A DNA stretch of 33,240 bases from Akkermansiaceae bacterium. Its GTDB lineage: Bacteria; Verrucomicrobiota; Verrucomicrobiia; Verrucomicrobiales; Akkermansiaceae. The notes beneath the pieces are model-generated. The model did no database searches, had not been told where the DNA came from, and saw only the letters and a list, made by a program, of their open reading frames with translations. Location: positions 1 to 33,240 of the forward strand of contig JANRFH010000022.1 in the NCBI GenBank assembly GCA_030725745.1. Direction: 5' to 3'. The translations under genes and the position numbers were made by a program. How positions within the stretch are numbered: position 1 is the first letter of the stretch; every line of letters begins with the position of its first letter. This document shows positions 7,797 through 31,822 of the stretch, piece by piece.

Positions 7797-7811
7797 GGGG
7801 AAGGGAATGTT

Positions 7812-7900
7812 ACCACGGAGTCACAGAGGACACAGAGGCTTTGGTTAGGGGGCCTGAGAACTTTGCAGGATTAACTCTGTGTTCTCTGTGTCTCTGTGGT
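7812..7900. repeat. Inverted-repeat element A, three-unit arms, no gene inside
   Basis: The left arm starts ACCACGGAGTCACAGAGGAC at 7812 and runs to about 7838; the right arm occupies about 7875-7900 and ends in TCTCTGTGGT. About 23 of 27 arm positions pair. Each arm consists of three CACAGAG-like units 8-9 bases apart, and about 36 bases lie between the arms. It fills the gap between the dehydrogenase stop (7902) and the isomerase start (7796). It shares the outer ends ACC...GGT and the three-unit arm design with the elements at 19983-20451, 27900-28076 and 31721-31822. A stem this long would form in the mRNA and could affect expression of the downstream isomerase gene. Confidence 0.85.
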
Positions 7901-7901
7901 T

Positions 7902-8945
7902 TTAGAGGGTGATTTTTTTGCCGTCCTGGGCGGCGGAACGGTAGATGGCCTCGATGAGGGCGACGGGTTTGCGGGCTTCGGCGGCAGACGTGATGGGTTC
8001 GCGGCCTTCGTGGATGGCGTTGACGACTTCTTCGAAGTTGCGCTGGTGCTGGTAGGTGTTGATGGCGGTGGGGTCGTTGGCACCGAGGCCTGCCTCTTGG
8101 CCTTTCATGAGTGTTGCGCGGATTTGGTCGTCTTCTGGGGTTTCTTCGGCGAAGTCCCAGGTTTCGAAGGATTCATCAGCGAGGAAGACGGAGCCCTTGG
8201 TTCCTGAGAGTTGGACGCGGGCGGGGTGGCCGTCTTTTGACCAGCAGCAGGTGGAGGCCTCGATGACTCCACGTGCGCCGTTCTCGAATTCCAGGACGGC
8301 AACGCAGTGATCCTCGACTTCGATGCGCTCGTGGGCGAGGCAGACGGTGTTCGCTTGCACGGATTTCACGGGTCCGGCGAGGTGGAGCAGGGCGTCGACG
8401 GTGTGGATGGATTGGTTCATGAGGGCGCCGCCGCCATCGAGTGCCCAGGTGCCGCGCCAGCCTGCGGAATCGTAATACGCCTGATCGCGGAACCATTTGA
8501 TGTAGGCGGATGCGGAGGCGAGGGTGCCGAAACGGCCGGCGTCTGCGGCTTTTTTGAAGGCGTTCATGCCGGGGTGAAATCGGCGGTTGAGGACGGCGGC
8601 AAGGGTTTTGCCGTTTGTTGTGGCGGCGGCGATGAGTTGGTCGACGCGCTCGGTGGTGATTTCTAGAGGTTTCTCGACGATGGCGTGTTTTCCGGCGTTG
8701 AGGGCGGCGAGGGTCGGGTCGAGGTGGGCGCCACTGGGTGTGCCGACGGTGACGATTTCCAGCTCAGGGTCGGCGAGGAAATCGTCGATGTCATAGTAGG
8801 CCTTGATGCCGAATTCTGCGGCGAGTTCGTCGGCGCGCTCTGGGCTGCGGTCGAGGACGGAGTGAAGGGTGCCGTTTGCCATGTCTGTGATGGCTTTTGC
8901 GTGGAAGCGGCCGATCATGCCTGCTCCGATGATTCCGAATTTCAT
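7902..8945 (-). CDS. Gfo/Idh/MocA-family NAD(P)-dependent oxidoreductase
   Basis: A 347-residue protein. The Rossmann fold begins at once (KFGIIGAGMIGRFHAKAI), the family EKP motif is in HAIVEKPLEI at about residue 95, and the substrate-side motif is GGGALMNQSIHTVD with the catalytic-region histidine. The C-terminal alpha/beta domain is complete (GTKGSVFLAD...ARKPVALIEAIYRSA). Family members oxidise or isomerise sugars, inositols and amino sugars with bound NAD(P); the substrate here is unknown. No Tat or Sec signal is visible, so it is cytoplasmic, unlike many Tat-exported relatives in this phylum. It lies between a transporter gene (38 bases upstream) and an isomerase/epimerase, which favours a joint role in uptake and conversion of a carbohydrate. 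Confidence 0.93.
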   Translation of the reverse strand: MKFGIIGAGMIGRFHAKAITDMANGTLHSVLDRSPERADELAAEFGIKAYYDIDDFLADPELEIVTVGTPSGAHLDPTLAALNAGKHAIVEKPLEITTERVDQLIAAATTNGKTLAAVLNRRFHPGMNAFKKAADAGRFGTLASASAYIKWFRDQAYYDSAGWRGTWALDGGGALMNQSIHTVDALLHLAGPVKSVQANTVCLAHERIEVEDHCVAVLEFENGARGVIEASTCCWSKDGHPARVQLSGTKGSVFLADESFETWDFAEETPEDDQIRATLMKGQEAGLGANDPTAINTYQHQRNFEEVVNAIHEGREPITSAAEARKPVALIEAIYRSAAQDGKKITL

Positions 8946-15395: not shown

Positions 15396-16205
15396 ATGCA
15401 AAGCATTCTTGGGGCTTTCTTGAATTTTTCCAAGGGCTTGGTGCTTGTGGGGCGGGGGGCAGAAAAGATAGAAAGAGGAATGATTGGAATAGTTTTAGGA
15501 TCGGGATTGGGTGTATTGGCGGATCAAGTTGAGGTGGTGCGAGAGGTGCCATTCGCTGATGCAGGCTTGGCTTCTTCGACGGTGGCGGGTCATGCAGGGA
15601 AATTCGTTTTCGGGAAGATTGGTAACCAAGAAGCGATCCTGATGAAGGGACGTGTGCATCTTTATGAGGGACATGGCGCGGAAAAGGTTACGGCTGGTGT
15701 CAGGTGGATGGCGGAGCAGGGGGTGGATTCTCTGATCCTTACTAATGCGGCGGGCACGGTGAATCGTGATTTCGAACCGGGGGAATGGATGATGCTTTCC
15801 GATCACCTGAACCTCACCGGCACCTCGCCGCTGGTGGGCGCGCAGTTCGTCGATATGAGCGAGGTGTATGACAAGGCCTGGCGTGCGGAATTTCTCAAAG
15901 CCGCTTCGGAAACTGGCGTGAAGCTCAACGAAGGTGTCTATGCCGGGCTACGGGGGCCGCAGTATGAAACGCCAGCCGAGGTGAGGATGGTGCGGACACT
16001 CGGCGCGGATGCGGTGGGCATGAGTACGGTGCTGGAGGCTATTCAGGCTAAGGCGCTGGGCATGCGGGTCGCGGGTTTTTCATGTCTCACAAACTGGGCG
16101 GCGGGCATGCAGGAGACGCTGAATCACGAGGAGGTGCTGGAGACGGGTAAAGCGGCGGGCAGCGTGATGGTGGGGCTGCTGGAGAAGGTGCTGGGGAAGC
16201 GGTAG
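15396..16205 (+). CDS. Purine nucleoside phosphorylase, trimeric PNP class
   Basis: Cleaves purine (deoxy)nucleosides with phosphate to base and (deoxy)ribose-1-phosphate, in purine salvage. Visible motifs: phosphate-binding LGSGLG, TVAGHAGKFVFG, the RVHLYEGH signature, LTNAAGTVN, GLRGPQYETPAEVRM with the base-pocket Glu, and DAVGMSTVLEAI; NWAAGM replaces the usual NxAAG asparagine context. These place it in the low-molecular-mass trimeric family. The ATG at 15396 gives 269 residues, but the first 28 do not resemble the family and sit in what should be a divergent promoter region with the LysM gene; an in-frame ATG at 15480 (MIGIVLGSGLG) is an alternative that would leave a short N-terminus. 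Monocistronic; a long-armed dyad follows the stop directly. Confidence 0.93.
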   Translation: MQSILGAFLNFSKGLVLVGRGAEKIERGMIGIVLGSGLGVLADQVEVVREVPFADAGLASSTVAGHAGKFVFGKIGNQEAILMKGRVHLYEGHGAEKVTAGVRWMAEQGVDSLILTNAAGTVNRDFEPGEWMMLSDHLNLTGTSPLVGAQFVDMSEVYDKAWRAEFLKAASETGVKLNEGVYAGLRGPQYETPAEVRMVRTLGADAVGMSTVLEAIQAKALGMRVAGFSCLTNWAAGMQETLNHEEVLETGKAAGSVMVGLLEKVLGKR

Positions 16206-16302
16206 GGAGAAGAGTCCGTCCCGGCTCTAGCGGAGGATGAGTCTTTTCAAAAAGCCGATGCAAATCTGGATTCTTCGCGTGGGCTGGGACGGACCCTTCT
16301 CC
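16206..16302. repeat. Long-armed dyad after the phosphorylase gene
   Basis: The left arm at 16206-16227 and the right arm at 16281-16302 pair at 19 of 22 positions around the core GGTCCGTCCC; about 53 bases lie between. The left arm begins at the base after the phosphorylase TAG. hemW ends convergently at 16416. The dyad could stop or protect transcripts from either side, but its large loop is unlike an intrinsic terminator and more like a mobile repeat. The arms lack the ACC...GGT ends of the four elements elsewhere in the window. Confidence 0.7.
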
Positions 16303-16328
16303 TTATTCTTCTTGCGGCAGTCTTGGAG

Positions 16329-18514: not shown

Positions 18515-18678
18515 GTTGGTCGCGGTGCGGGCGGAAAGAAAGCTGACTGGGGAATTTGTTGCAAGGGTTTTTTGGACGGAAATGGGAAAAAGTTGCGAAG
18601 AAGGGTCTCGGGGGAGGTGGATGACGGGGACTTTGGCTTGATTAAGGGGAGTGGGTGTGCATTGTCGCGCCCCGCGCT

Positions 18679-19974
18679 ATGGCAGGACAGACATTCCAAG
18701 CATTACCAGGATTCAGAGATTTCACCCCACGAGAGTGTGCGGTGCGCAATTATCTGTTTGATACATGGCGCAAGGTCGCCCGGCGCTGCGGGTATGTGGA
18801 GTATGAAACACCGATCCTTGAGGACACCGGGCTTTATTTGAAGAAATCCGGCGGTGAGCTTTCCTCGCAGTTGTTCCGATTTGAGGATCAGGGTGGGCGT
18901 GATGTGACCTTGAGGCCTGAAGTTACGGCATCGCTGGCAAGAATTGCAGCAGCGGAGCAGCGGGCGTATCCGAAGCCGCTCAAGTGGTTCGAGATTGGGC
19001 AGTGCTTCCGCTATGAGAAGCCGCAGAAGGGGCGTGGGCGTGAGTTTCATCAGTTCAATGTCGATATTCTCGGCGAAGCAGGGCCGGGAGCGGATGCGGA
19101 GCTCATTGCGCTGGCGATCCAGACGATGCAGTCATTCGGGTTCGTGCAGGGGGATTTTGTGGTGCGTGTTTCCGACAGGAATGCGTGGGTGAAATTTGCC
19201 GAGGCGCGGGGCGTCACGGAAGAGGCGATGCCGGATTTCCTCAATTTGGTGGACAAGCTGGAGCGCGAGAAGCCGGAGGTGCTGGAGGAGAAGCTTTCGA
19301 AATTCGGCGCGACGCTGACTGAAGTGAACGATTTCGTGGCGAATCCGGAGGATGCCGAGGGGACTTTCCAGGAGATCCTGAAAGACCTCCAAGCGCGTGG
19401 ATTGGGTGGCTTCGTGGAACTCGATCTTTCGATCGTGCGCGGGCTTGCTTACTACACCGGCGTGGTTTTCGAGGTATTTGACTCGACCAAGTCGATGCGG
19501 GCGGTAGCGGGTGGTGGTCGGTATGACACGCTGGTGGGTACGATTTCAAACGGAGCTGTGGACATGCCGGCGACGGGTTTCGCGATGGGCGACTACGTGA
19601 TCCGCAACCTGATCGAGGAGACGCCGCACGCAGCGATGCAGATGGAAGTGTGGCTCCAGCGCAATGCGGCAGGCTGCGAGGCTTACATGGTGATCCCGGA
19701 TCCTGCGATGCGGGGCGAGGCTTTGCTTCTCGTGACGGCACTTCGCAATGCGGGTATTGCAGTGGATCTCCCGCTCTCGGACGCGAAGGTGAACAAGCAA
19801 TTCCAAGCGGCGGAGAAGAGCGGAGCGAGGTTTGCGGTGATCATCGGCGAGGAATTTCCGCTGGTGAAAATCAAGGTTTTGGCAAGCCGGACGGAGGAAA
19901 GCTGCGAGGCGGGTGCCTTAGTGGATTGGATGCTGGATCGGCTGATGGAGCCTGACGGGCCGCTGATTGCTTGA
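18679..19974 (+). CDS. hisS: Histidyl-tRNA synthetase
   Basis: Charges tRNA-His. A class II synthetase of 431 residues from the ATG at 18679 (MAGQTFQALPGFRDFTP, the typical HisRS N-terminus); the upstream in-frame ATG at 18655 adds eight unrelated residues and is rejected. Visible: motif 1 region with YETPILEDTGLYLKKSG, motif 2 EIGQCFRYEKPQKGRGREF, and the histidine-specific IVRGLAYYTGVVFEVF, where the usual RGLDYY carries Ala instead of Asp. Motif 3 is AGGGRYDTLVG...ATGFAMGDYVI. The C-terminal anticodon-binding domain is present (about residues 325-425). In many bacteria hisS is followed directly by aspS; here a repeat-flanked GxxExxY gene lies between the two. Confidence 0.96.
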   Translation: MAGQTFQALPGFRDFTPRECAVRNYLFDTWRKVARRCGYVEYETPILEDTGLYLKKSGGELSSQLFRFEDQGGRDVTLRPEVTASLARIAAAEQRAYPKPLKWFEIGQCFRYEKPQKGRGREFHQFNVDILGEAGPGADAELIALAIQTMQSFGFVQGDFVVRVSDRNAWVKFAEARGVTEEAMPDFLNLVDKLEREKPEVLEEKLSKFGATLTEVNDFVANPEDAEGTFQEILKDLQARGLGGFVELDLSIVRGLAYYTGVVFEVFDSTKSMRAVAGGGRYDTLVGTISNGAVDMPATGFAMGDYVIRNLIEETPHAAMQMEVWLQRNAAGCEAYMVIPDPAMRGEALLLVTALRNAGIAVDLPLSDAKVNKQFQAAEKSGARFAVIIGEEFPLVKIKVLASRTEESCEAGALVDWMLDRLMEPDGPLIA

Positions 19975-19982
19975 AGAGGAAA

Positions 19983-20451
19983 TAACCGCAGATGGACGCA
20001 GATGAACGCAGATTACCCATGCAAACAGGAAACCGATACCATCATCGGATGCGCGTTTGCCGTTTTGAACGACATCGGACATGGATATCATGAAAAACCC
20101 TACGAAAATTCTCTGGTTGTGGAGTTCGAACATCGCGACATCCCATACCTCCAGCAACCCCGCTATCCGATCACATACCGGGATAAACAGGTTGCGGAAT
20201 ACATTCCGGATCTTATCGCCTTCAATAAGGTGATCGTTGATACCAAAGTCATCGAGCGCATCACCGATCACGAAATTGGCCAGATGATTAATTATCTAAA
20301 AGTCACCGGATTGCCCGTCGGCCTCATCCTCAATTTCAAACAATCCAAACTCGAATTCCGCCGCGTCGTCGCCTCCACCCAAAATTTCATCCAACGCAAA
20401 AAGGACTGACCAAAGTTTTCATTCACGTCCATCTGCGTCCATCTGCGGTTA
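19983..20451. mobile_element. Inverted-repeat element B carrying a GxxExxY gene
   Basis: The left arm at 19983-20014 (starts TAACCGCAGATGGACGCAGA) and the right arm at 20421-20451 (ends CATCTGCGGTTA) are inverted copies that agree at about 26 of the outer 28 positions. Each arm consists of about three CGCAGATGRA units with a 10-base period. The whole element, 469 bp, fills the gap between hisS and aspS and contains one gene, a PD-(D/E)XK-like GxxExxY protein whose start codon lies inside the left arm. It shares outer ends (ACC...GGT) and three-unit arms with elements A, C and D. No transposase and no obvious target-site duplication were seen. Confidence 0.8.
20002..20409 (+). CDS. GxxExxY-family protein, PD-(D/E)XK nuclease-like
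   Basis: A 135-residue protein of the GxxExxY family (TIGR04256, Pfam PDDEXK_3 as I recall them). The name-giving motif is G28-Y-H-E31-K-P-Y34. Nuclease-like residues follow: P69-D70 (YIPDLI), then D80-T-K82 in place of the more common ExK, and the Q94xxxY98 motif that often supports the active site in PD-(D/E)XK folds. The biochemical role of the family is not established to my knowledge. The ATG at 20002 lies inside the left arm of the inverted repeat, so the first five residues (MNADY) are encoded by repeat sequence; the stop precedes the right arm by 11 bases. The gene is intact. It may be transcribed with hisS and aspS. Confidence 0.9.
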   Translation: MNADYPCKQETDTIIGCAFAVLNDIGHGYHEKPYENSLVVEFEHRDIPYLQQPRYPITYRDKQVAEYIPDLIAFNKVIVDTKVIERITDHEIGQMINYLKVTGLPVGLILNFKQSKLEFRRVVASTQNFIQRKKD

Positions 20452-20475: not shown

Positions 20476-22269
20476 ATGCGTACCCATCATTGCAACGAAC
20501 TTTCCGAATCCCACATCGACCAAACCGTCACCCTCATCGGTTGGGTGAACTCGGCGCGGGATCATGGTGGGGTGATTTTCATCGACCTGCGGGATCGCGA
20601 GGGTCTGACCCAATGCGTTTTCCGCCCTGAGGAGAATGCCGACGCTGCTACGCTATCTCATAATCTTCGTGAAGAGGATGTGGTGCAGGTGATTGGTAAG
20701 GTTTCGAAGCGTCTGGAAGGTGCGGAGAATGCGAAGATGGCGACAGGGGCGATTGAGATCGTGGCGTCGGATTTAAAAATCATCAACAAGGCGGACGTGC
20801 TTCCGTTCCAGCTCGACAAGGAACTTTCCAACGAAGATCTGCGGATGAAATACCGTTACCTCGATCTGCGTCGCGCGCGCATGTCGAAGAACATCCGCCA
20901 GCGCAGCAAGATCACTTCTGCAGCGCGACGTTACCTCGATGATTCCGGTTTTTATGAAATCGAGACACCGATCCTTTCGAACCCGACTCCGGAAGGTGCG
21001 CGGGATTTCTTGGTTCCTTCGCGTCTGAATCCGGGAAAATTCTATGCGCTTCCCCAAGCGCCACAGCAATACAAGCAGCTGCTGATGGTGGCGGGTGTGG
21101 AGAAGTATTTCCAGATCGCACGCTGCTTCCGCGATGAGGATCTTCGTGCGGATCGCCAGCCGGAGTTCACACAGATCGACCTTGAGGCGAGCTTTGTGGA
21201 TCAGGAGGACATCATCAAACTCGTGCAAGGCCTGCTCGGTGCGATGTTCAAGGCGGGGCTGGATGTGGATATTGCGAAGGAATTCCCGCGCATGACCTAT
21301 GCAGAAGCGATGGATGTCTATGGCTCCGACAAGCCGGACACGCGTTTCGACATTAAGATCACCGACCTTGCGGATGTATTCGCGGCCACGGAGTTCAAGA
21401 TTTTCAAAGGCGTGCTCGAAGGCGGCGGCGTGGTTCGTGCGATCAATGCGAAAGGCTTCGCGACGATCACCACGGGTCAGATGAACCGTCTCAATGAGAT
21501 CGCCGTGCAGGCAGGTCTACCGGTGAAGAACCTCGCGTTCATCAAGCTGGAGAACGGCGAATACAAGAGCCCGCTGTGGAAGATTTTCTCCGAGGAGGAA
21601 AAGGCTGCTGTCACTGCGAAGATGAATCTGGAGGAGGGCGACATCGTTTTCTTTGCAGCAGGTTCGCGTGAGAGTGTTTCAACCATCCTCGGCCGCGTGC
21701 GCTCCGAGTGCGCGGTGATGCAGGGGCTGAACGAAGGCTCGGACAAATTCAATTTCCTCTGGGTCGTCGATTTCCCGCTGCTTGCGCAGGATGAGGAAAG
21801 CGGCGAGTGGGTGGCGGTTCACCATCCTTTCACCCGCCCTCATGCCGATGACCTCGGCAAACTGGAGAGCGGAGATTTCGCGAACGTGCGTGCGCAGGCT
21901 TACGACGTGGTGCTGAACGGCTACGAGCTGGGCGGTGGATCGATCCGTATCCACGAAAAGGATCTCCAGGCGAAGATGTTCGAGGCTCTCGGCGTTTCTC
22001 CCGAGGAGCAGCAGATTAAGTTCGCCCATATTCTCGATGCATTCCGCTTCGGTGCGCCTCCGCACGGCGGGCTTGCGCTGGGTCTCGACCGCATTGCGAT
22101 GCTGGTTTCCGGAGAGGACAGCATCCGCGAGGTGATCGCTTTCCCAAAAAACAACAAGGGAGCAGATCTCATGGCGCAGAGCCCATGCGAGATCGGGATG
22201 AAGGAGCTGCGCGAGGTTTACGTGCAGAGCACCTACAAGAAGAAGGACGCGCCGATGGTGGGAGAGTGA
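20476..22269 (+). CDS. aspS: Aspartyl-tRNA synthetase
   Basis: Charges tRNA-Asp (and possibly tRNA-Asn if non-discriminating). The 597 residues are the usual bacterial length. The N-terminal OB-fold anticodon domain is clear (VTLIGWVNSARDHGGVIFIDLRDREG). Motif 1 region RSKITSAARRYLDDSGFYEIETPIL is followed by the flipping-loop/substrate region ALPQAPQQYKQLLM (most AspRS have QSPQ), motif 2 CFRDEDLRADRQPEF, the bacterial GAD insertion domain (about 280-420), and motif 3 GLALGLDRIAMLVSG. The start at 20476 is the first Met of the conserved N-terminus (MRTHHCNEL). It lies 25 bases after the right arm of element B. Whether this enzyme also serves Asn cannot be decided from this window. Confidence 0.97.
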   Translation: MRTHHCNELSESHIDQTVTLIGWVNSARDHGGVIFIDLRDREGLTQCVFRPEENADAATLSHNLREEDVVQVIGKVSKRLEGAENAKMATGAIEIVASDLKIINKADVLPFQLDKELSNEDLRMKYRYLDLRRARMSKNIRQRSKITSAARRYLDDSGFYEIETPILSNPTPEGARDFLVPSRLNPGKFYALPQAPQQYKQLLMVAGVEKYFQIARCFRDEDLRADRQPEFTQIDLEASFVDQEDIIKLVQGLLGAMFKAGLDVDIAKEFPRMTYAEAMDVYGSDKPDTRFDIKITDLADVFAATEFKIFKGVLEGGGVVRAINAKGFATITTGQMNRLNEIAVQAGLPVKNLAFIKLENGEYKSPLWKIFSEEEKAAVTAKMNLEEGDIVFFAAGSRESVSTILGRVRSECAVMQGLNEGSDKFNFLWVVDFPLLAQDEESGEWVAVHHPFTRPHADDLGKLESGDFANVRAQAYDVVLNGYELGGGSIRIHEKDLQAKMFEALGVSPEEQQIKFAHILDAFRFGAPPHGGLALGLDRIAMLVSGEDSIREVIAFPKNNKGADLMAQSPCEIGMKELREVYVQSTYKKKDAPMVGE

Positions 22270-27874: not shown

Positions 27875-27899
27875 CAGGGCTCCCTCGTTTTGGATTATC

Positions 27900-28076
27900 A
27901 ACCGCGAATGGACGCGAATAGACGCGAATAAGAGTGGATATTTGTACTTCAAAGGCACCAAATTCGCAAAGTTTGACCCATTGTAGGTGACGATAGTCGG
28001 GATACCGGCGTAAAGCGGACCATTCGAAGGATTCAATTGCAATCGATTTGCGTCCATTCGCGTTCATTCGCGGTTC
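27900..28076. repeat. Inverted-repeat element C, three-unit arms, no intact gene
   Basis: The left arm at 27900-27932 starts AACCGCGAATGGACGCGAAT; the right arm at 28046-28076 ends CATTCGCGGTTC. Each arm consists of three CGCGAATRGA-like units with a 10-base period. About 113 bases lie between the arms, with no recognisable gene. It occupies most of the 280-base gap between tamA and the phosphatase gene; nothing else is evident there. The architecture is the same as in element B, which carries a gene. Confidence 0.85.
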
Positions 28077-28154
28077 CTTCTTCAAAATGAGGTAGCCCTA
28101 ACCTTTTGAGCTTTGGCGCTGGCAGGCCGCCAGTTTGTGTATTTCAGTAGCCGG

Positions 28155-31617: not shown

Positions 31618-31720
31618 GTCCTCTGGGTACTGGGTGGATGGGTTTAGGTCAAGGGTGGGGGGCTAATCGCAAGGCACCCTCGATTATGGATTTTATTGTG
31701 AATGAAGAGAAAAAATTTAA

Positions 31721-31822
31721 ACCGCAAAGGCGCGAAGACGCAAAGCTTGGGTTGTGGAGGTTCTTTATAGTGATCTCAAATAGTTTCATTTTGCTGGCTT
31801 TGCGTCTTTGCGCCTTAGCGGT
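31721..31822. repeat. Inverted-repeat element D, three-unit arms, no gene inside
   Basis: The left arm (31721-31745) starts ACCGCAAAGGCGCGAAGACG; the right arm (31798-31822) ends TGCGCCTTAGCGGT. Each arm consists of three CGCAAAG-like units with an 8-base period. An A-rich (left) and T-rich (right) extension continues the pairing outwards for about ten more bases. About 52 bases lie between the arms. It sits in the 249-base gap between the two minus-strand genes on either side; nothing else is evident in that gap. Confidence 0.85.

Follow-up and report, generated by a model that had tools for sequence, protein, structure and literature searches.

On balance, we lean towards the reading that element B, located at 19983-20451 of the window (the whole analysed stretch of 33,240 nucleotides from the genome of an Akkermansiaceae bacterium), is one genetic unit: a lone, predicted RecB/Cas4-type nuclease gene lies in inverted iterated arms, the encoded protein would recognise and cut its own arms, and gene-less doublets of such arms would be non-autonomous derivatives. 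The GxxExxY family to which the protein belongs is common and has no known role, and iterated-arm repeats accompany it across many phyla; linking the two gives both a testable function. The layout suggests mobile or self-maintaining DNA built on a nuclease, not on a transposase, and the substrate of the protein is probably printed at either side of its own gene.

The GxxExxY gene of element B and its predicted fold

The features of the locus are the following.

18655..19974, + strand: hisS, left neighbour, flank of the host site of element B
19983..20013, + strand: left arm of element B, AACC followed by three CGCAGAT units spaced 10 bp apart, with the start codon inside
20002..20409, + strand: GxxExxY / PDDEXK_3 gene, 135 aa, with E31, D70, D80-x-K82 and Q94xxxY98; AlphaFold2 pLDDT 93
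20420..20451, - strand: right arm of element B, reverse complement of the left arm, strictly paired at 20426-20451, third unit degenerate
20476..22269, + strand: aspS, right neighbour, flank of the host site of element B

The neighbours, as read from their sequences, are presumably hisS and aspS. Element B carries a single intact gene between its arms, as had been read from its letters before; the arms consist of units of about 10 bp, and the gene (ORF 20002-20409) matches both TIGR04256 and PF13366. Over 26 nt, the arms at 19983-20008 and 20426-20451 show 96% complementarity, with 417 nt between them, and the CGCAGAT units of the left arm lie at 19987, 19997 and 20007. The arm score, for which the 300 nt before a gene are compared with the 300 nt after it and the best inverted match is taken, is 47 for element B as compared to a 99th percentile of 28 for 1012 neighbouring windows of other loci, one of which is a run of N. 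The start codon (ATG at 20002) does lie in the left arm, as the sequence-only reading stated; its placement of the first five codons there was too generous, since about 2.5 codons are strictly paired and 4 codons, up to 20013, fall in the three-unit arm. An in-frame ATG within the left arm is seen in 30 of 200 armed elements, and is therefore not a general feature of the family. Rfam search of the window revealed two tRNAs only, none within element B. A separate inverted repeat of the GGGTCCGTCCCAGCC type (36 nt at 78%) is present at 16203-16305 of the window, outside this unit class.

The window protein is a clear member of TIGR04256, GxxExxY (E 1.1e-35; 122.5 bits, cut-off 35) and PF13366, PDDEXK_3 (E 1.7e-32; 112.7 bits, cut-off 22), a family name without a function. 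A Pfam scan up to E 1 returned PDDEXK_3, Phage_endo_I and DUF7916, and no transposase family. The residues named earlier from the translation (P69 D70, D80 T81 K82 and Q94...Y98) are in place, and alignment of 53 proteins revealed E31, D70, K82, Q94 and Y98 to be invariant, with glutamate in column 80 in at least 90%. The motif set E, D, (D/E)XK and QxxxY marks the Cas4 / RecB / lambda-exonuclease branch of nucleases. The D ... (D/E)xK signature is conserved and the AlphaFold2 model (pLDDT 93) displays the alpha-beta core of PD-(D/E)XK proteins; the first Foldseek matches of the model are lambda exonuclease (E 3.4e-4) and SSO0001 (E 8.7e-4), which we take to be a Cas4, and VIA-align superimposes the latter with a Z of 9.0 and an rmsd of 3.9 over 104 residues. 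The Pfam Cas4 model gives weak matches in 31 of the 53 aligned proteins (best E 0.0032), as do the PADLOC Cas4 models in 29 of them. No relative of the window protein was found by sequence search of the Protein Data Bank up to E 1. We are confident of a predicted PD-(D/E)XK fold of the RecB/Cas4/lambda-exonuclease type, which shares both its modelled core and its motif set with that branch, and a predicted RecB/Cas4-type nuclease is the safe reading of the protein.

The GxxExxY protein differs from the Cas4 branch in being small, stand-alone and enclosed within inverted arms. Two cysteines, the only ones in the window protein, are too few for the iron-sulphur site of Cas4. The term 'inverted repeat' is absent from the available part of a paper on solo Cas4 proteins (PMC5704561). 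In the accessible text of the searchable literature, most subscription papers and bioRxiv preprints lying outside it, GxxExxY or PF13366 is named in passing, with no function and no link to repeats; literature search with the arm sequences retrieved only two papers, both of them on animals.

Many defence effectors share a PD-(D/E)XK-type fold. Together with the weak PADLOC Cas4 matches (29/53), this favours a defence or toxin-type nuclease for which the repeats would be decoys or regulatory hairpins, a reading we regard as very unlikely: at E 0.01, PADLOC gave no match for the window protein itself, one query gave no match in 50,697 phage records, and the gene stands alone between genes read as housekeeping.

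Inverted arms as a general feature of the family

The source genome (3.42 Mb, 57 contigs) contains seven PF13366 matches and, as read by eye, inverted arms of about three 8-11-bp units surround all seven genes. The units are CGCCAAG, CACAGAG, CACGAAG, CACGGAT (two genes), CGCGAAT and, for the window gene, CGCAGAT; one of the two CACGGAT paralogues has a second, outer pair of arms of the CGCAGAT type. These paralogues are 21-52% identical to the window protein.

A gene was counted as armed at a score of 28 or, in the set of the source genome and its phylum, at the 99th percentile of its own control, 27.9 (210 shifted windows). In the latter set 32 of 35 genes reach the threshold, one of the 36 loci (L003, at a contig edge) being left out. 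A single query gave at least 528 matches, the best 80 of which make up the multi-phylum set, and 61 of these loci reach a score of 28, which is the 99th percentile in 1012 shifted windows; by record titles, the armed loci among the best 80 are 28/46 in Bacteroidota, 15/16 in Pseudomonadota, 7/7 in 'delta' lineages, 3/3 in Verrucomicrobiota and 8/8 in others. Additional paralogues of the phylum are armed in 47 of 57 cases, after three contig-end loci of 60 were dropped. With the genus set included, the pooled count is 200 armed genes of 246, about a third of the 246 coming from other phyla; this count errs both ways, because it includes other inverted repeats (e.g. L064, L070, L106, L107 and L206) and misses some genes with degenerate arms below the threshold (L078, L122, L123 and L126).

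The sequence-only reading had asked whether GxxExxY genes are flanked by such arms more often than their neighbours. They are: against 200/246, about 1% of neighbouring windows reach the threshold, as do 13 of 246 mis-paired flanks, in which the left side of one gene is set against the right side of another. When flanks were crossed within a clade, the own pairing was better in 82% of 613 draws; this version replaced a within/between comparison of arms (97% of 1047 pairs), which was biased since the arms had been preselected as best pairs. Some genomes contain the unit pattern tens of times, and with repeats so common any gene could in principle appear flanked by chance or base composition. 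The shifted windows and crossed flanks refute this explanation and leave it a practically negligible probability. Arms are thus a general feature of the GxxExxY family.

A contrast based on the literal G..E..Y motif failed, as genes with it (193/235 armed) and without it (7/11) do not differ significantly (p 0.13). In the genus tree, a divergent PF13366 group of the same genus is devoid of arms, by reading, in 9 of 12 genes (L272, L274, L282, L284, L286, L288-L290 and L294, as against L275, L283 and L285 with arms); this arm-poor group may offer an internal comparison for function. Of the 194 genomes sampled from the phylum, 102 have PF13366 matches, with up to 12 per genome. The family is rare on plasmids, where GxxExxY was found in 8 of 72,556 records. 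An algal virus genome with an annotated GxxExxY gene (PMC12085832, Table 1, the paper being available in part) suggests that the family reaches beyond bacterial chromosomes.

The arm type tracks the protein, the other correlation that had been called for. Arm similarity between genomes rises with protein identity (Mantel rho 0.33, as compared to a maximum of 0.12 in 300 permutations) among 172 armed genes, 31 of 203 being below the threshold and excluded. Arms of paralogues within one genome, with a mean similarity of 0.31 (69 pairs), do not resemble each other more than do those of equally distant proteins of different genomes (0.27-0.35). The arm of the nearest protein is closer than the mean of the own-genome paralogues in 46 of 50 cases at protein identities of at least 70% and in 56 of 84 at 60-70%, while 21 of 36 at 50-60% is not significant; the gene pairs in these comparisons are non-independent. 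In the genus tree of 90 genes (8 fragments of 98 left out), clades mostly hold one unit type each. Arms and protein have thus stayed together over long evolutionary times, and arms differ between the paralogues of one genome. Co-inheritance of linked DNA accounts for part of this tracking; the retention of noncoding arms at only 70-80% protein identity suggests that they are under constraint.

Presence, absence and apparent movement of the unit, and its gene-less relatives

Relatives differ at one chromosomal site, where they have the full unit, an internally deleted form or no unit. Thirty hisS-aspS loci were read, 8 of them without a hisS match. The full element is present in 6 (the source genome and 5 relatives) and a short gap without the element in 11; L031, of genome G006, has arms around a remnant of the last codons of the gene, L020 a lone arm, L028 and L029 a different gene-less arm type, and L035 a long gap. 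Together with the persistence of the arms beside the protein, this supports the earlier proposal that gene and repeat form one unit. The gene at this site is under purifying selection (pN 0.11-0.22, pS 0.65-0.89, 15 pairs). Arm covariation at the same site was dropped as evidence, because the apparent difference came from the source genome; in the other five genomes, the two arms show little covariation (28.6 vs 28.3).

Among gene pairs of at least 70% identity, 148 of 229 have no flank homology and 81 have some, so movement appears infrequent, many close homologues being syntenic. L084/L081 and L088/L081 are the clearest cases of relocation; in both, the limits of DNA homology fall no more than 2 nt from the outer ends of the arms. 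Over all 49 non-syntenic pairs of at least 75% identity, the boundary is mostly blurred: 10 pairs have the left limit of homology no more than 12 nt from the outer arm end, 22 the right limit and 4 both limits, and homology runs past the arm by more than 15 nt on the left in 5 pairs and on the right in 6. There is no clear signal of target-site duplications in 162 compact elements, and direct repeats flank them in a small surplus at every length: 24 observed vs 18.3 expected at 4 bp or more and, at successively greater lengths, 10 vs 6.1, 5 vs 2.5 (at least 6 bp), 2 vs 0.8 and 1 vs 0.45 (at least 8 bp). These flank, duplication and boundary tests leave out the 46 sub-threshold genes of 246.

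The same observations bear on a household role, in which GxxExxY would be a genome-maintenance or quality-control nuclease acting on hairpins or cruciforms, its arms would be sites of binding or autoregulation, and the repeats without a gene would spread otherwise. Holliday-junction resolvases and recombination exonucleases among the fold matches, purifying selection at one site, frequent synteny, and rarity on plasmids with no match in the phage records (one query) are in its favour. A selfish unit fits better than a household enzyme with the patchiness at one site, where a gutted copy also occurs, with up to 12 PF13366 matches per genome and with arms that differ between paralogues; the maintenance role is unlikely, though a reasonable candidate.

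Three gene-less elements with arms of the kind of element B were located in the window by a unit scan; their equation with the elements A, C and D of the sequence-only reading is our own identification. None of the three, nor the transposon derivative around the second, has a strand assigned.

7810..7903: gene-less element A, CACAGAG-type arms, unit identical to that of the resident gene copy L002
27875..28101: MITE of 227 bp, terminal repeats CAGGGCT...AGCCCT, 8-bp target duplication CCTTTTGA
27900..28075: gene-less element C, inverted CGCGAAT arms, unit identical to that of the resident gene copy L006, nested in the MITE
31720..31822: gene-less element D, CGCAAAG/CGCGAAG arms

Elsewhere in the genome, the CAGGGCT MITE recurs three times in near-identical form and once as a more diverged copy (80%), with target duplications of 8-9 bp by reading. 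Its site at 27875-28101 is empty in G004 and G005, which are both of the relatives that have its two flanking genes together. Element C is nested in this MITE and owes its number of copies to an ordinary transposase, not to GxxExxY. The three elements can be retained as relatives of element B, with the qualification that one of them is carried by an ordinary transposon derivative.

Beyond the window, 16 of 19 further CGCGAAT loci (L301 was dropped of 20 stretches) show an inverted partner by reading, generally with AACC at the outer ends, 3 of the 16 being in the CAGGGCT MITE. The gene-less L305 and L313 have a common interior (81% over 122 bp). DNA folding of four gene-less doublets gave hairpins with z of -4.7 to -8.8, none of 200 shuffles being as good. 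Profile search for gene remnants in 23 gene-less elements gave no match better than E 4.4, and a remnant was seen, by reading, only at hisS-aspS in G006.

In the source genome, pattern matches are numerous for units with a resident gene (CGCGAAT 47, CGCCAAG 24) as compared to units without one (CACGAAT 1, CACGGAA 0). Among 194 genomes, 66 of the 102 with the gene and 13 of the 92 without it contain one particular arm pattern (672 vs 38 matches; Fisher p 2.6e-13, kinship and genome size being ignored). The far rarer reversed control pattern (48 matches in total, 28 of them in one genome) is likewise found more often in genomes with the gene (16/102 vs 3/92), and part of the co-occurrence may therefore reflect genome size or phylogeny. 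Within the genus, unit type is linked to the cognate gene significantly for CGCGAAT and CACGAAT and marginally for CACGGAA, which has two cognate genomes (p over the four unit types 0.006, 0.009, 0.037 and 0.14), and for CGCCAAG units there is no difference between cognate and other genomes (p 0.14); cognate genomes were assigned from the genus tree and match listings, and three broken or partial copies were counted. G015, G017 and G018 have many repeats and no matching gene in the data. Contigs C23, C159 and C331 of G019 hold head-to-tail CACGGAA arrays of about 6-11 units, and no GxxExxY match is found in that genome at E 1e-8. Gene-less copies hence depend only in part on a resident gene of matching unit. 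What had been proposed as a gene-carrying unit with gene-less relatives stands, an internally deleted derivative at the same site included, and its tie to the resident gene is clear for two of four unit types, marginal for one and absent for one.

These data also bear on whether the gene is a captured passenger, the arms and doublets being mobilised by another recombinase (DDE or HUH). Element C within its MITE with 8-9-bp duplications, at least one repeat match in 13 of 92 gene-negative genomes, and the genes L106 and L107, which lie in a block of about 700 bp ending at another inverted repeat, agree with a passenger. The occurrence of the family in arms across many phyla, the clade-specificity of these arms, and flanking direct repeats of at least 4 bp in 24 of 162 elements vs 18 expected, far below the trace of a duplication-making enzyme, speak against it and make it quite unlikely. 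Between the two loci, the L106/L107 block is 85% identical; the inverted repeat at which it ends is of a different kind (GCTACTCTTT), and L106 has TGCCCCCG at either side. The block is possibly a MITE carrying a nuclease gene.

Comparison with RAYT/REPIN and a second nuclease family

RAYTs are HUH tyrosine transposases. Element B differs from them in that its protein is a predicted PD-(D/E)XK nuclease, and since no transposase domain is matched it is not a RAYT member. In the available parts of PMC2817692 and PMC3116915, the RAYT gene lies between inverted repeats that coevolve with it, inverted doublets form hairpins and repeat abundance correlates with gene presence; RAYT corresponds to Pfam Transposase_17 (PMC2817692, likewise in its available part). 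The GxxExxY gene similarly lies between two inverted repeats (200/246) that coevolve with it, and its gene-less inverted doublets resemble REPINs as hairpins (16/19 loci with an inverted partner; 4/4 folded). In contrast to REPs, which are single palindromes, the arms mostly have 3-4 iterated units of 8-11 bp, and the abundance link to the gene, unlike that of RAYT/REPIN, is partial. By analogy, element B appears to work most like RAYT/REPIN, with an unrelated nuclease. It shares gene-less inverted-repeat derivatives with MITEs and DDE insertion sequences, but shows no clear target duplications (162 elements) and has no DDE transposase; the MITE that hosts element C is a true example of that class beside element B.

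In the favoured reading, in which the nuclease acts on its own arms, it would recognise several half-sites on one face of the helix, the unit spacing of 8-11 bp being about one turn; alternatively, its substrate may be a hairpin or cruciform formed by the arms in single-stranded or supercoiled DNA. Cleavage would occur at or near the outer arm ends, and joining would be left to host repair or replication, because the nuclease has no strand-transfer domain. The element and its gene-less doublets would thereby spread slowly and be maintained without target duplications, much as in RAYT/REPIN but with a different nuclease in charge. If true, a hydrolytic nuclease, and not a transposase, would sustain such a population of repeats.

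DUF559 (PF04480), likewise a family of small, lone, nuclease-type proteins, failed as a negative control, as it has arms of its own, different type. Arms of the CCCTC/CCCTCTCCC type, mostly CCCTCACCCC...CCCTCTCCC, are present in 16 of 30 phylum loci (30 of 34 matches listed), namely in 16 of the 17 best matches (L355-L371) and in none of the other 13, most of which are weak matches inside large ORFs; 4 of 119 neighbouring windows reach the threshold. Among ten plasmid copies (L385-L394), hand-picked from 44 plasmid records found, nine have arms scoring at least 28, two of these being of another, CCCCTAAATCCCC-like type. Since DUF559 also has arms, of its own type, a broader reading is kept, and the gene-in-arms layout may represent a wider class. 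It is quite conceivable, if still tentative, that lone small PD-(D/E)XK nucleases make up a broad, undescribed class of repeat elements of bacteria, a transposase-free counterpart of RAYT/REPIN; each family (GxxExxY and, independently, DUF559) would own and recognise a characteristic inverted arm, and cutting with host repair would both spread and maintain its gene-bearing units and large populations of gene-less hairpins. In 8 of the 17 best matches, the DUF559 core lies inside an open frame of 690-1300 aa, read as a type I restriction gene, where it is an apparent in-frame insertion.
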